DNA of 64,000 nt. It comes from Nitrospira lenta. Its GTDB lineage: Bacteria > Nitrospirota > Nitrospiria > Nitrospirales > Nitrospiraceae. The DNA lies in contig NZ_OUNR01000017.1 of the NCBI RefSeq assembly GCF_900403705.1, positions 248,001 to 312,000 on the forward strand, given 5' to 3'. This document shows positions 20,030 through 31,811 of this stretch, piece by piece. The notes below the pieces were generated by a model, which searched no databases, was not told the DNA's origin, and was given only the letters and a program-made list of their open reading frames with translations. The translations under genes and the position numbers were made by a program. Position 1 is the stretch's first letter, and each line of letters begins with the position of its first letter.

Positions 20030-21553
20030 CTACTTCGGGTTGACTGCGACGAACAGGCTGTTGCCCTGCCGGCTCACCAGCAGCACCGCCAATTCGTCTT
20101 TCTTGATCTTGTTCGCAGCCTTTAGATATTCATCCACTGTTTTGACGGTCTCATGATTCACTTCTTGGATGATATCCCCGCGCTGCAATCCCGCCGCCTC
20201 AGCCTGACCGCCCGGCTCCACGCTGGTCACGACCACGCCGGTGGTCTTGGCGGGAATATTCAGCTGGCTCATCAGCGCATTGTCCAACGCCTGAATCTTG
20301 AGTGAGGCCAGCACATTGTCCGGAGGCTTGATCGTCTCGCCCTGTTCCTTGGGCGGAGCCGCTTCCTTTTTAGCCAGCAACTCATCGGAGGGACGTTCAG
20401 CAACCTTCACGGAAATGGTTTGCTCTTTTCCATCGCGCAACACTTTCACCTGGGCATCTTTGCCCACCATGGTCCGCGCCACCAGATTGCGCAACTGGCT
20501 CACGCTCTGCACTTCCTTGCCGTTGAACGCAACGACCACGTCGCCGCGCTTCATTCCGGCGGCCGCTGACGGTCCATTCTCATTCACATCGCTGATGAGC
20601 ACACCCTTGCGCTGCTCCGGCAGCTTAAACGACTTCGCCAAGGCCGGTGTAATTTCCTGAATCGCCACTCCCATCCAGCCACGCACCACTTTGCCGGTTT
20701 TCTGAAGGCTGTCGACAATGTCCACTGCAATGCTGCTGGGAATGGCAAAACCGATTCCCTCCGAGCCGCCGGTGCGGGAGAAAATGGCGGTATTGATCCC
20801 CATCAATTCACCGTTCATATTCACCAGCGCCCCACCGGAGTTGCCCGGATTGATCGCGGCGTCGGTCTGGATAAAATCTTCATAGTCGGCGATGCCCACA
20901 TTCCCGCGGCCCAATGCGCTGATGATGCCCAGCGTGACCGTGGAACTCAGTCCGAACGGACTGCCGACGGCCAGCACCAGATCTCCCACCGCCAGCTTGT
21001 CGTAATCGGCCCACTTCAAGGCAGGCAAATCCTTCGCCTCAATCTTAATCACCGCCAAATCGGTCTTGGGATCTGTACCTACGGTCTTGGCCGTGAACTC
21101 ACGACGATCGCTGAGCGTTACGGTAATCTGCGTTGCGCCTTCGACCACATGGTTATTCGTCACGATGTAGCCATTGGGATCCAGAATAACTCCCGATCCG
21201 GCACTCTGCTCAGGCCGTCCATGCCCCCCTGGAGGGCCCGGCGGCATCGGAGGCGGCGTCGGAAGATCTCCACCACCCGGCTCTTCCCCACCACCACCAG
21301 GAGGTCCACCGAACGGTCCGGGCGGGAGCCCACCACGGCGACGCCCCCCTTCCCCACTGCCGCCTGTCACGGCGATATTCACCACCGCAGGCGTTACCTT
21401 CTTCACAATCTCAGAAAAACCCTGGGTAAAGGCCGGAGGAACACCTGCCGCCAATACGGCGGGGCTCCCGATCAACCCGCCTGCGACCGTGGCCGCCAGT
21501 ACAAGCCCACAACCAATAACAAACTTGGTCGCCTGCTGACTCCGATAGACCAT
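20030..21553 (-). CDS. degP: DegP/HtrA periplasmic serine protease
   Basis: A 507-residue Do-type protease and chaperone. A signal peptide ends at about residue 35. The trypsin-like domain has the triad His135 (NNHVVEG), Asp165 (KTDLAVIK) and Ser239 (NPGNSGGA). Two PDZ domains follow (about 295-390 and 415-500). A low-complexity Gly/Pro loop of about 45 residues (about 65-110) sits in the position of the LA loop. The ATG at 21553 has GGGAGGA 8 bases upstream, so longer starts were rejected. It lies 67 bases upstream of tatC on the same strand. Confidence 0.94.
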   Translation of the reverse strand: MVYRSQQATKFVIGCGLVLAATVAGGLIGSPAVLAAGVPPAFTQGFSEIVKKVTPAVVNIAVTGGSGEGGRRRGGLPPGPFGGPPGGGGEEPGGGDLPTPPPMPPGPPGGHGRPEQSAGSGVILDPNGYIVTNNHVVEGATQITVTLSDRREFTAKTVGTDPKTDLAVIKIEAKDLPALKWADYDKLAVGDLVLAVGSPFGLSSTVTLGIISALGRGNVGIADYEDFIQTDAAINPGNSGGALVNMNGELMGINTAIFSRTGGSEGIGFAIPSSIAVDIVDSLQKTGKVVRGWMGVAIQEITPALAKSFKLPEQRKGVLISDVNENGPSAAAGMKRGDVVVAFNGKEVQSVSQLRNLVARTMVGKDAQVKVLRDGKEQTISVKVAERPSDELLAKKEAAPPKEQGETIKPPDNVLASLKIQALDNALMSQLNIPAKTTGVVVTSVEPGGQAEAAGLQRGDIIQEVNHETVKTVDEYLKAANKIKKDELAVLLVSRQGNSLFVAVNPK

Positions 21554-21673
21554 GCTCAGTTCCTCCCGACGGTTGAACTCACAAGACTCCCTACACTGAT
21601 CGGCAACCAGCTGGTAACGACCGACCGAACGGTGCATCTTACACTAATCATTCCTTGGGCTTCAAAGAGGAAA

Positions 21674-21802: not shown

Positions 21803-23626
21803 CTATCGCTCTTTCTGTTCTGCCGCACCCCACAACAGCGCGACGCCGATGACCGCGGCCAGCACCGAGGCGGCCAGCACGGCAAGCTTGGCGGCTGCAA
21901 AGTCGGCATCGATGGGGAAGGCTTGTCCCGCGATGAAAAGCGACATGGTGAATCCGATCCCGGCCAATCCCCCTGCGCCGGCCAATTGCAACCACGAGTA
22001 GCTGTCCGGTTTCTCCGCCAGATTGGTCCACACCGCAATCCTCGAGGCCAAGATCAGCCCAATGGGCTTGCCGATCACCAGCCCGGTCATGATGGCGAAC
22101 AGCAACCCATTGTGTCCGCTCAAGGCATCGGTCGAGATCACCACACCCGCGTTCGCCAGGGCAAACAGGGGGAGCACCAGATACGTGGAACGGCCTCCGG
22201 CAAGGCGCAACACGCGGCTGGCCGGAGACTCCAACCGTTCATGGATGGCATCGAGTGCACGCAGGGCAGGCAGCGACGGTCCGTGCCGGAGCACGTCTTT
22301 GCCGTTGGCTTCGTCAGCCGAGACAATCAAATTGGCTTGCGTCAACAATGCTTGAAAATTAGGCGGCGGCCGGGTCGGAATAAAGAGCGCCAAGAGAACC
22401 CCCGCCAGTGTGGCATGCAATCCGCTGGCATGCACGCAGGCCCAGAGCAGGATGCCGAGCGCCATGTAGGGCAGCACCCGATACACCCTCGATTGATTGA
22501 GCAGTCCAAGCGCTCCCACGATCACGGCGCCGACGGCGAGGTAGCCGAGCTGAAGAGGGCCGGAGTACACCGCCGCGACCACAAGGATCGAGCCGATGTC
22601 GTCGACAATGGCGGCCGCCGTTAGGAAGACACGCAATTCGACTGGAACACGGCGGCCCAGCACCGCCATCAGCGCGATCGCGAAGGCGGTATCGGTAGCC
22701 ATGGGAACGCCCCAGCCATACGTCCATGGACCAGCGGGAATGATCAGGAGATACAGGAGAGCGGGCACCACCATGCCGCCGATGGCGGCGGCGATCGGGA
22801 GAGCGGCCGAGCGGCGGCTCGCCAAATGGCCGACCGTGATTTCGCGCTTAATTTCCAGCCCGACCACTAGGAAAAAGATCGTGAGCAGGCCATCGTTGAT
22901 CCAGTGCCGGAGTGACATTCGAAAACCGAGGTCTCCAAAAACCATCCCGACATCTTGATGCCACAACGCCTCGAAGGCAGCCCCGAGCGGCGAATTGGTG
23001 AGCACGAGCGCCAGCAGGGTGGTGAGGAGGAGCAGCACGCCAGCCGATGGGCCCCAGCCGACGAAATCGAGCGTCACCGAACGGAGGCGATGCTCCAGGG
23101 TTCCGCGCATGGCGTCGCACAGAGACTGCTCATCCCAGGGACCGTCATATCGGCGGTTATTGATGAAAAATGAGGGCGTCATCAACACACCGCTCGCCTT
23201 GGCGCTCGCGACGTCGGACTCCACTCGCTCCTTGGCACGCTCGGCCGTCGCACTGGTCTGTGAGTCATCTGGATCGATGTCCAGTTCCGCAGCAACGGCA
23301 ACCAGATCCTCTTCCGTCAATTCGGAGGACCTGGTCATGAGCGCCATGTGGACCTTCCAGAATTGCTCCCCCTCCGCTCGTTCCACGAGTTCTGCGGCCC
23401 GCCGCGCGAGCTCGTGATGGGGAATCGGACGCTGGCGGAAGACATAGCGCACCCGGTCACCGAAGTAGTCGCGCACGGTCGCGATGCTCTCGTTGGCTTC
23501 ACGGCAATACCCGCACGCATAACTGCCATACTCGACAAGGGTAATGCTTGCATGAGAAGGCCCCAGCGTATGGTCGCGCTCGTCTACCGGCCGATCCAGC
23601 CAGCCTTTCTGTACGTCATGAGACAT
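21803..23626 (-). CDS. nhaA: NhaA Na+/H+ antiporter with N-terminal DsbA/thioredoxin domain
   Basis: The 607-residue protein is a fusion. Residues about 15-180 form a DsbA-like thioredoxin domain (VEYGSYACGYC, redox Cys38 and Cys41, and the cis-Pro segment VLMTPSFFIN). Residues about 190-605 are a full NhaA with MATDTAFAIALM and the ion-binding pair in VDDIG. NhaA exports Na+ in exchange for H+. No signal peptide precedes the thioredoxin domain, so its side of the membrane is unclear; it may be cytoplasmic. Such fusions are known in the NhaA family. The gene is monocistronic with a terminator downstream. Confidence 0.93.
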   Translation of the reverse strand: MSHDVQKGWLDRPVDERDHTLGPSHASITLVEYGSYACGYCREANESIATVRDYFGDRVRYVFRQRPIPHHELARRAAELVERAEGEQFWKVHMALMTRSSELTEEDLVAVAAELDIDPDDSQTSATAERAKERVESDVASAKASGVLMTPSFFINNRRYDGPWDEQSLCDAMRGTLEHRLRSVTLDFVGWGPSAGVLLLLTTLLALVLTNSPLGAAFEALWHQDVGMVFGDLGFRMSLRHWINDGLLTIFFLVVGLEIKREITVGHLASRRSAALPIAAAIGGMVVPALLYLLIIPAGPWTYGWGVPMATDTAFAIALMAVLGRRVPVELRVFLTAAAIVDDIGSILVVAAVYSGPLQLGYLAVGAVIVGALGLLNQSRVYRVLPYMALGILLWACVHASGLHATLAGVLLALFIPTRPPPNFQALLTQANLIVSADEANGKDVLRHGPSLPALRALDAIHERLESPASRVLRLAGGRSTYLVLPLFALANAGVVISTDALSGHNGLLFAIMTGLVIGKPIGLILASRIAVWTNLAEKPDSYSWLQLAGAGGLAGIGFTMSLFIAGQAFPIDADFAAAKLAVLAASVLAAVIGVALLWGAAEQKER

Positions 23627-28997: not shown

Positions 28998-29123
28998 GGG
29001 AACCGAGCATAGATCGAGTGGCCGCAACGCCGCAAGGGATGGGCGGATCCGTGTTGCTTTCACCTTTTGAATCCGGTACGGTGGCGCGTCGAAATTAACC
29101 CCAGCCCTCGGAGCCTGAACCCA

Positions 29124-31004
29124 ATGAACGGTTCCTTTTCCATGCCAGCCAGACCGCTCAGGACACCGCTTCCAGCCATTCTGACGATGCTCTTCCTGAT
29201 CATTGGAGTCGGCTGTGCGAGCCACTTGGAGTTTCCTCCGATGGGTGAGCCGCTGCACGTCTCGGTCAAGCTGGAAATTCCTGCTTCGATCAAAACGCTG
29301 CGGGCGGAATACACCGACGGATGCGGACACCTCATGCAAGTCCCGCTCGGAGCTCGCCTGGAAGAAGCCCTTGTGGAAGGCGCCTATCGAACATTCAAAT
29401 CCGTTTCCTACGAAGGGGGCGGGAGCAAAGATGCGGTGCCGGAGGCCGTCGTCCGCGTGGATCTGGTGAATTGGTCATTCAAGCTTCAGCAGGACAACCT
29501 CTACGACCGCGTCCCGGCGAATATTCAATTGAATGCTATCGCACGGGTGTACGATCTCACCGGGAAGGTTCTGCGCGAATCCGAAGTGAAGGTCGTGCGC
29601 CAAGAGCGATTACGTCTAGAGGCCGCCCAACGCAACTGCGATTACATCATCGACCCGTTTATCCAGGACACCTCCGTCGATTTTGCCTCCAAAGTTTCGA
29701 TGGATGTCCGAGAAGCCTTTGGGGGAAAAACGCAGGCGGCTGTGACGGCGGCGACCCCAGCCCCGCTGGCAACGCCTCAACCAGCAGCAGGACTCCCGAC
29801 AAGCAGGCCGCAGCTTCCGGCGACAACGGCATCCGCCTCGTCTTCACTCCGCTTTAAAGCGATGATCCTTGATGAGAATGGGAACCTCGTCTTGGAAGGC
29901 GGTGAACGTGTCCGGGTCCGCGTTGATATTGTGAACGTCGGCATGACGGCGATTCAGCAGGCCATCGTCTCTCTTTCCGGCAGTCAGGCGCTCATTACGC
30001 ATTTCCCGTCGTCCGTGCTGCCTGTCCCGGCGTTACAGCCGGGAGAGACTAAATCCATTGAGTTTGTCGCGACGCTACCGCCTTCAATCCAGCCGCAGAA
30101 AGCCGAGCTCCACGTCACCGTCGAAGAACCGGCCTCACACCAGGCAGCTCCGGCACAAACACTGACGGTCGTGATGCAGGCAACCGGCATTAAAACCGAT
30201 GACGTAGACCAAATCCCCGTCGCCACCACAACGTTCCACCAACCCAACACCTATCTGCTCTCGATCGGAATCGGATCATACCGGGACCCGCAGGTTCTCC
30301 CACGAAAGTTTGCGTCACTCGATGCGGAGATGGTGGCCAGCTACTTCCAGGCACTGGGAGGAGTTCCTTCAACCAATGTCCGCCTGCTGCAAGACTGGAA
30401 AGCCTTGCGCCCGGATATCGATGAAGCCCTCCTGGACTGGCTCCCGCCGCACATGACCAAAGAGGCTGTGGTTATTGTGTACTTCGCCGGCCAAGCGATG
30501 GTAACCCATACGGGAGAAGTGCTCTTGGTTCCCTACGAAGGCAGCCCGACCGCCACATCGCGCCTCTATCCCCTGAAAGACCTTGAAGCGGCGCTGACGC
30601 GACTCAAAGCGAAACAAGTGATCCTGTTATTCGATGGAATGGTGTCGAGGCTTCATAGCGACCCCAAGGTAAAAAATCTCCCCCCTCGTTGGGACTCAGC
30701 GGGATCCTCGATCATCCGCATCGTCAGCAGCGACAACCTCGGCAAGGGTCTGGAAGACGATACCCACCGCCATGGACTGATGACGTACTACCTACTCCGC
30801 GCGCTGCGAGGGGAGAGCGATTCAAACCGCGACGGGTCGGTGACCCTCGCGGAAACGGCCGCATACGTGAGCCAAAAAGTCACCTGGGCGGCGAAGACCC
30901 AATTTAATAGTGATCAACGTCCGCTCATCGTTCCGCCACTCAAACAAACGGATCCGTCGTCTGCGCTCGTGCTGAGCAAGCTCGCTGCGATTCGAGGCGA
31001 ATAA
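29124..31004 (+). CDS. caspase-fold lipoprotein lacking both catalytic residues
   Basis: A 626-residue lipoprotein (lipobox GVGC, Cys31). Residues about 40-210 are an unknown N-terminal domain; about 220-240 is an Ala/Pro linker; about 245-340 is an Ig/CARDB-like domain. About 370-625 is a caspase (peptidase C14) fold. The usual YFAGHG is YFAGQA, with Gln457 in place of the catalytic His. The usual LLDACFSG is LLFDGMVSR, with Met506 in place of the catalytic Cys. An EF-hand-like loop DSNRDGSVTLAE lies at 566-577. It is therefore probably a binding or scaffold protein, not a protease. Divergent from the carbamoyltransferase. Confidence 0.8.
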   Translation: MNGSFSMPARPLRTPLPAILTMLFLIIGVGCASHLEFPPMGEPLHVSVKLEIPASIKTLRAEYTDGCGHLMQVPLGARLEEALVEGAYRTFKSVSYEGGGSKDAVPEAVVRVDLVNWSFKLQQDNLYDRVPANIQLNAIARVYDLTGKVLRESEVKVVRQERLRLEAAQRNCDYIIDPFIQDTSVDFASKVSMDVREAFGGKTQAAVTAATPAPLATPQPAAGLPTSRPQLPATTASASSSLRFKAMILDENGNLVLEGGERVRVRVDIVNVGMTAIQQAIVSLSGSQALITHFPSSVLPVPALQPGETKSIEFVATLPPSIQPQKAELHVTVEEPASHQAAPAQTLTVVMQATGIKTDDVDQIPVATTTFHQPNTYLLSIGIGSYRDPQVLPRKFASLDAEMVASYFQALGGVPSTNVRLLQDWKALRPDIDEALLDWLPPHMTKEAVVIVYFAGQAMVTHTGEVLLVPYEGSPTATSRLYPLKDLEAALTRLKAKQVILLFDGMVSRLHSDPKVKNLPPRWDSAGSSIIRIVSSDNLGKGLEDDTHRHGLMTYYLLRALRGESDSNRDGSVTLAETAAYVSQKVTWAAKTQFNSDQRPLIVPPLKQTDPSSALVLSKLAAIRGE

Positions 31005-31268: not shown

Positions 31269-31715
31269 CTACTCGCCCTTGCAGAAGCTCCGCTCGTAGT
31301 TGATGATGTTCCACGCTTCTTCTTCGTTGATCGCGGCAGGAATCAACGAGACCATGCCGGTGCCCTGGCTGCCGTTCTTGATGACCCAGAACAGCTCGCC
31401 ATCTTTCCGCTTCTTGTGGAACTTGCAATTGGTGAAGTCCCGGGGGCTCGGATCCAGAATCGCGCCGGCCGGTCCATCGCCCTTGCCTTCTTTTCCATGA
31501 CAGTTGAAGCAAGTGCCCTTGCCCTCGAATAACGCCTTGCCCTTGGCAATGCTCTCAGGACTCGAGGCAATCGGATTCTTCATGGCCTTTGCATCGCTCA
31601 TCTGATCGGCTGGGACGCGGGGCTTCAGCGGATCTTTTTCCGCGGCTCCCGCCACCGTCACAGACATGAGCATCAGGGCTGCAGTGATTCCCAAGAACTT
31701 CGAGAAGTAACCCAT
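31269..31715 (-). CDS. periplasmic mono-heme cytochrome c
   Basis: A 148-residue secreted cytochrome. The signal peptide ends near AGAA (about residue 25). One heme site is CFNCH, preceded by KGKALFEGKGT; a Met for the sixth ligand is available in GTGMVSLIP. Two more Cys occur later (FTNCKF, SFCKGE). It resembles class I cytochromes of nitrifiers that shuttle electrons in the periplasm. AAGGAGG lies 7 bases before the ATG. It has its own consensus promoter and a very strong terminator, so it is likely a highly expressed single-gene unit. Confidence 0.9.
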   Translation of the reverse strand: MGYFSKFLGITAALMLMSVTVAGAAEKDPLKPRVPADQMSDAKAMKNPIASSPESIAKGKALFEGKGTCFNCHGKEGKGDGPAGAILDPSPRDFTNCKFHKKRKDGELFWVIKNGSQGTGMVSLIPAAINEEEAWNIINYERSFCKGE

Positions 31716-31811
31716 CGCACGTCCTCCTTTGTGTTGAACCCACCACACGTGAACTCGGCCTTAGGCCGCTGGCATTATGATACCGATACAAAAATTCACT
31801 GAAACGGGCGG

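Follow-up and report, generated by a model that had tools for sequence, protein, structure and literature searches.

A predicted outer-membrane lipoprotein of Nitrospira lenta carrying a caspase-fold domain without the catalytic His-Cys pair

The window analysed here is a stretch of 64,000 nucleotides of Nitrospira lenta DNA, and one of its genes encodes a predicted lipoprotein whose C-terminal domain is a true caspase homologue with the caspase-haemoglobinase fold, far beyond chance. The residues opposite the catalytic His and Cys are Gln457 and Met506, the domain contains no Cys, and the loop that follows the Cys in intact relatives is missing. Because of these three features the protein cannot be a caspase-type protease, and we infer from the missing residues that proteolytic activity is absent. 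We further infer, with fair but not strong confidence, that this pseudo-caspase, anchored in the outer membrane, acts by binding partners as a calcium-binding scaffold or adaptor. The features of the gene are as follows.

29124..31004, + strand: coding sequence of 626 aa, predicted outer-membrane lipoprotein (ORF with ATG at 29124 and stop at 31004)
29124..29216, + strand: putative signal peptide and lipobox ending in Cys31 (residues 1-31; LFLIIGVGC), with Cys31 invariant in 27 family members
29253..29723, + strand: N-terminal alpha/beta domain, residues 44-200, LptE/CsgG/GNA1162-like fold with C67 and C172 (AlphaFold2, Foldseek)
29724..29837, + strand: Ala/Pro/Thr low-complexity linker, residues 201-238 (pLDDT <50)
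29844..30179, + strand: CARDB domain, an Ig-like beta-sandwich, residues 241-352 (Pfam; beta strands in the model)
30246..30935, + strand: caspase-fold domain, catalytically dead, residues 375-604 (intact-only profile, Foldseek)
30492..30494, + strand: Gln457 at the catalytic His position (alignment with intact relatives)
30639..30641, + strand: Met506 at the catalytic Cys position (alignment with intact relatives)
30648..30656, + strand: site of the missing loop of about 14 residues, near residues 509-511 (alignment with intact relatives)
30771..30791, + strand: HGLMTYY motif, residues 550-556, common to intact caspases and kept (alignment)
30819..30854, + strand: EF-hand loop of 12 residues, DSNRDGSVTLAE, residues 566-577 (orthologue conservation)
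30912..30923, + strand: DQRP tail motif, residues 597-600, DQTP/EQTP in intact relatives (alignment)

The caspase identity was settled by family profiles and folds, which succeeded where searches with the single protein failed. Neither Pfam Peptidase_C14 run on the single protein nor a phmmer search of the single protein against the PDB gave a caspase match. By contrast, a profile made exclusively of intact caspase domains, 18 in number, recognised the C-terminal domain at E=1.4e-45, the match spanning 3-242 of its 243 positions, and Peptidase_C14 matched 16 of the 27 family members (best 3.9e-9). The NCBIfam model caspase_w_EACC1 matched residues 381-586 of the protein itself with E=4.4e-8, which is under the model's curated cut-off, and the family profile searched against the PDB sequences gave no caspase match and found mainly EF-hand proteins. 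In the AlphaFold2 model of the full protein (mean pLDDT 79.6) the blocks of the caspase domain lay mostly at 86-95, and the top Foldseek matches of this domain were MALT1, Yca1, a Candida metacaspase and human caspases, with probability 1.00. MALT1 (3v4o) was the best match of the caspase core, with E 1.2e-9, a TM score of 0.71 by target length and 16% identity; unlike the Nitrospira protein, the MALT1 paracaspase is an active cytoplasmic protease with another set of domains. The caspase fold claimed by the earlier note was thus borne out by the intact-only profile, the NCBIfam model and Foldseek.

An alignment with 18 caspase domains of other Nitrospirota placed the motifs YFAGQA (residues 453-458) and LLFDGMVSR (501-509) at the two catalytic sites; Q457 aligns with the His of Y[YF][SA]GHG, and M506 with the Cys of LDSCFSG. 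The earlier note had read Gln and Met as the replacements of the catalytic pair, which is correct for these sites, and the pair does not lie elsewhere, as the caspase domain is free of Cys: the only cysteines of the whole protein are C31, the predicted lipid anchor, and C67 and C172 of the N-terminal domain. Gln-Met is not a fixed pair, however. In the 78 Nitrospira orthologues, the residue at the His position is Q (49), L (17), H (8), V (2) or T (2), and that at the Cys position is M (22), I (15), K (13), T (11), L (4), N (3) or another, such as V or S, but never Cys. As both positions drift, the exact residues carry little meaning, and we dropped the idea that Gln and Met are significant in themselves.

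Comparing the two sets of close relatives gives the same picture on a wider scale. The His and Cys columns are invariant in 33 close intact relatives, whereas in 63 dead relatives they hold Q, R, L, H and others at His and S, T, P, M and others at Cys; the Cys column is among the most variable of the domain in the dead clade (96th percentile of entropy). The Gly, Pro, Phe and Ser columns beside the dyad, invariant or nearly so in the 33 intact relatives, drift in the 63 dead ones as well, and the loop GGRSV...G.RP, which comes right after the Cys in intact relatives, is absent from the Nitrospira protein. The dead relatives keep the structural columns G382, W439, G456, D504 and L558. H550 and G551 of HGLMTYY are invariant in intact relatives and retained in all 53 ungapped dead rows, and Q598 and P600 of the tail motif are likewise invariant in intact relatives.

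To place this loss, we used a phylogeny of 110 Nitrospirota caspase domains, made by a quick search with SH-aLRT support. All 63 members of the lipoprotein family without the Cys form one clade (SH-aLRT 99), which adjoins the intact CARDB-caspases of the phylum (SH-aLRT 94). On the whole tree the His changes seven times, and the Cys changes only twice, in the lipoprotein family and in a separate TPR-type lineage. Judged from this tree, the real event is the loss of the Cys, once and long ago, in an ancestor of the order Nitrospirales. The family was matched in 94 of the 99 genomes searched from the genus and the order, with an orthologue in nearly all genomes of the same genus, L076 of N. moscoviensis being one of them. 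Against the four closest orthologues, leaving out comparisons with saturated synonymous sites, dN/dS in the dead caspase domain was about 0.09-0.10, a value by which the domain is under strong and long purifying selection.

The C-terminal domain also carries a canonical EF-hand loop, D566-x-N568-x-D570-G571-x-V573-x-x-x-E577, which probably binds Ca2+. Its residues D566, N568, G571 and E577 are found in 78/78 orthologues. Of the dead sequences, 63 out of 66 have a canonical loop, and two of the three that deviate come from broken or truncated copies; among intact relatives the count is 21 of 44. The loop noted earlier as kept is therefore indeed canonical and conserved throughout the orthologues, but it is not unique to the dead form, as about half of the intact relatives have one. 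Because the nearest intact relatives differ in this respect, with a canonical loop in L201 but not in L202, its presence is best read from the sequences as retention of an inherited feature and not as a new gain.

The remaining parts of the protein point to the envelope. Judging from the lipobox pattern, the pseudo-caspase lipoprotein is most likely located in the outer membrane: C31 is present, and the residue at +2 is Ala, not Asp (pattern judged by eye). Other possible starts of the ORF are TTG at 29067 and ATG at 29142, and a start near 29142 would give the signal peptide a better n-region. The N-terminal domain was modelled with a pLDDT of 90.7, and its Foldseek matches in the PDB were LptE, CsgG and the minor lipoprotein 5tse, with E 3.5e-6 to 1e-3 and moderate TM scores of about 0.4-0.55. 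It thus resembles outer-membrane lipoproteins of the LptE, CsgG and GNA1162 type in N-domain fold and lipoprotein anchoring, but the likeness is at the level of the fold, with no significant sequence similarity and moderate TM. A search of the domain against the PDB sequences gave no match, sequence homology to the LptE/CsgG-type families was not found, and matches to ABC_trans_aux were weak (E 0.075). C67 and C172 are invariant in 78/78 orthologues, which suggests a disulfide between them. The Pfam CARDB match is weak for the protein itself (E=0.008) and is seen in 20 of the 27 family members, with a best E of 3.2e-4. Two more proposals of the earlier note, a lipidated protein and an Ig-like domain, hold in this form: a predicted lipoprotein with Cys31 invariant in the 27 family members, and a CARDB domain.

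Taken as a whole, the domain order is consistent with a protein that binds and does not cut. The lipoprotein would be exported and lipid-anchored, most likely at the inner leaflet of the outer membrane and facing the periplasm; the LptE/CsgG-like domain would sit either at the membrane itself or on a partner there, and the flexible linker and CARDB domain would act as a spacer. The dead caspase domain, which has one EF-hand loop, could then serve as a protein-interaction module, probably Ca2+-binding, in which Ca2+ bound by the loop would play a structural or a regulatory part. The earlier suggestion of binding or assembly at the envelope is plausible and agrees with the LptE/CsgG-like N-terminal domain.

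The genomic neighbourhood offers two candidates for a binding partner, both of which are listed here for context only.

20030..21637, - strand: DegP/HtrA-like periplasmic serine protease (Trypsin_2 and 2 PDZ)
31269..31748, - strand: periplasmic c-type cytochrome, convergent downstream neighbour (Cytochrome_CBB3)

In 66 of the 80 Nitrospira loci a DegP-like gene is found upstream in divergent orientation, in 39 of them at a distance of less than 420 bp, and both proteins are predicted to act in the periplasm. The lipoprotein could thus be an accessory or regulator of a DegP/HtrA-type protease, acting as a pseudo-protease adaptor to present misfolded envelope proteins or to gate DegP. We nevertheless regard this as improbable. 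Gene order conserved within one genus is weak functional evidence, and the pairing was not seen beside the relatives of families f2 and f3, except that a DegP-like gene occurs several kb away at one f3 locus. In this window, moreover, DegP and the pseudo-caspase gene are separated by several genes, including those for an antiporter, a glycosyltransferase and a carbamoyltransferase. As a separate observation in this part of the window, a single ORF at 21803-23626 (- strand) fuses an N-terminal DsbA-like thioredoxin domain with an NhaA-type Na+/H+ antiporter.

About as improbable is a role as accessory factor for the assembly or anchoring of periplasmic cytochrome or respiratory modules. The c-type cytochrome is a conserved convergent downstream neighbour in 64 of 80 Nitrospira loci. 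The paralogue of this genome (G000:C1:533277-535064; L032, L167), whose dyad positions hold Arg and Ser, and the f2 copies adjoin a cluster with a cytochrome bd-like subunit I, c-type cytochromes and an ethylbenzene-dehydrogenase-like haem protein, in an order common to family f2. Yet these neighbours stand on the opposite strand or behind an opposite-strand gene, so a shared operon is not supported, and the abundance of cytochrome c genes in Nitrospira genomes would make chance neighbours likelier. The f3 copies (L157-L165) lack such a context and adjoin one or two lipoproteins without a Pfam match, the carbon-starvation protein CstA and a YajQ-like protein (YajQ judged by eye). We found no operon partner in the window, where the gene is flanked by a divergent carbamoyltransferase and the convergent cytochrome c. 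Across the Nitrospira loci, the paralogue with f2, and f3, no single pathway common to the neighbours stands out; as the conserved neighbours differ between lineages, the scaffold or adaptor reading does not come with one shared pathway.

Dead caspases in animals commonly become decoys or allosteric partners of active ones, as cFLIP does for caspase-8. A dead domain that pairs with an intact caspase and tunes it could be imagined here as well, since intact H-C caspases exist in some Nitrospira genomes (G037, G001, G029, G025). For this genome, which is 99.98% complete, the intact-caspase profile found three convincing genes, none of which has the catalytic Cys; the dyad positions read Q/M in the gene described here, R/S in the paralogue and H/A in a TPR protein. 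A fourth match (E=0.57) carries no weight, and no intact caspase partner was detected with this profile. Because all three detected genes lack the Cys, a decoy role is disfavoured, and we consider it somewhat less probable than the roles beside DegP or the cytochrome. The TPR protein (G000:C18; L001:835-2226, - strand) matches Pfam C14 at 1.5e-13, keeps GHS, and has DTAVRG in place of DSCFSG, with Ala at the Cys; by its sequence it is the third dead caspase of the genome, from a separate loss.

That the protein is still an enzyme, working through residues other than His-Cys, is very improbable: the dominance of Gln at the His position could hint at a new role, but with the Cys position this variable, the post-Cys loop lost and the domain devoid of Cys, we rejected activity through another dyad. 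Least probable of all, and already refuted for the main copy, is a decaying gene without function, as the low dN/dS of the dead domain, the presence of the family in nearly all genomes searched and the strictly conserved non-catalytic motifs stand against the few broken orthologues and truncated extra copies. These broken orthologues carry in-frame stops (L041, L051 and G009:C193; stops in G039, G009 and G007), which may reflect either faults of assembly or genuine decay. The extra copies (L012:3335-4105, L067, L068, L071) are short, with CARDB and a partial caspase domain, and one of them directly follows the main gene; perhaps they are partial duplicates in decay. The calcium-binding scaffold or adaptor remains our preferred reading.

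Dead bacterial caspases are known mostly from cyanobacteria. There, pseudo-orthocaspases (p20 proteins with Y-S, Y-N or Y-G, e.g. SyOC of Synechocystis) have been described (PMC6426788, PMC7889975). Like them, the Nitrospira protein has a bacterial caspase fold minus the His-Cys pair and is presumed inactive; with a caspase p20 fold in which both dyad residues are replaced, it falls into the same class. It differs from them in several respects. The dyad is Q/M and not Y/S or Y/N; SyOC is described without a p10 domain, whereas the Nitrospira protein keeps a p10-like part with the EF loop; it combines LptE/CsgG-like and CARDB domains in a predicted envelope lipoprotein; and on this tree it derives from intact Nitrospirota CARDB-caspases. 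The nearest intact relatives on the tree are the CARDB metacaspases/orthocaspases of the L201/L202 type, which share the CARDB and caspase architecture, HGLFTY, the DQ.P tail and, in some, an EF-like loop, but retain GHG and DSCFSG and, by eye, differ in their N-terminal parts. The Nitrospirales protein is thus a distinct, order-wide variant of the known dead bacterial caspases, and our literature search found no Nitrospira-specific paper on a pseudo-caspase lipoprotein.

The clade is of use in that a single loss of the catalytic Cys can be traced and compared with intact sister proteins, and its members have a predicted envelope location and still carry the EF-hand loop. A 2012 census put the share of Nitrospirae caspase homologues that retain the dyad at only 57% (PMC3501461), and the dead clade, present across nitrite-oxidising Nitrospira, adds detail behind this figure. 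An annotation of such genes as caspase or peptidase C14 would mislead. A much bolder proposal, which we hold to be doubtful, is that Nitrospirales turned a caspase into a Ca2+-responsive outer-membrane scaffold, kept by all or nearly all Nitrospira for envelope quality control or for periplasmic respiratory modules; the caspase fold would then have a non-proteolytic use across a whole order, for which no counterpart is known. Among the intact caspases of the phylum, several (L202, L206, L207, L209) stand in tandem within some Nitrospirota genomes, which suggests repeated local duplication.
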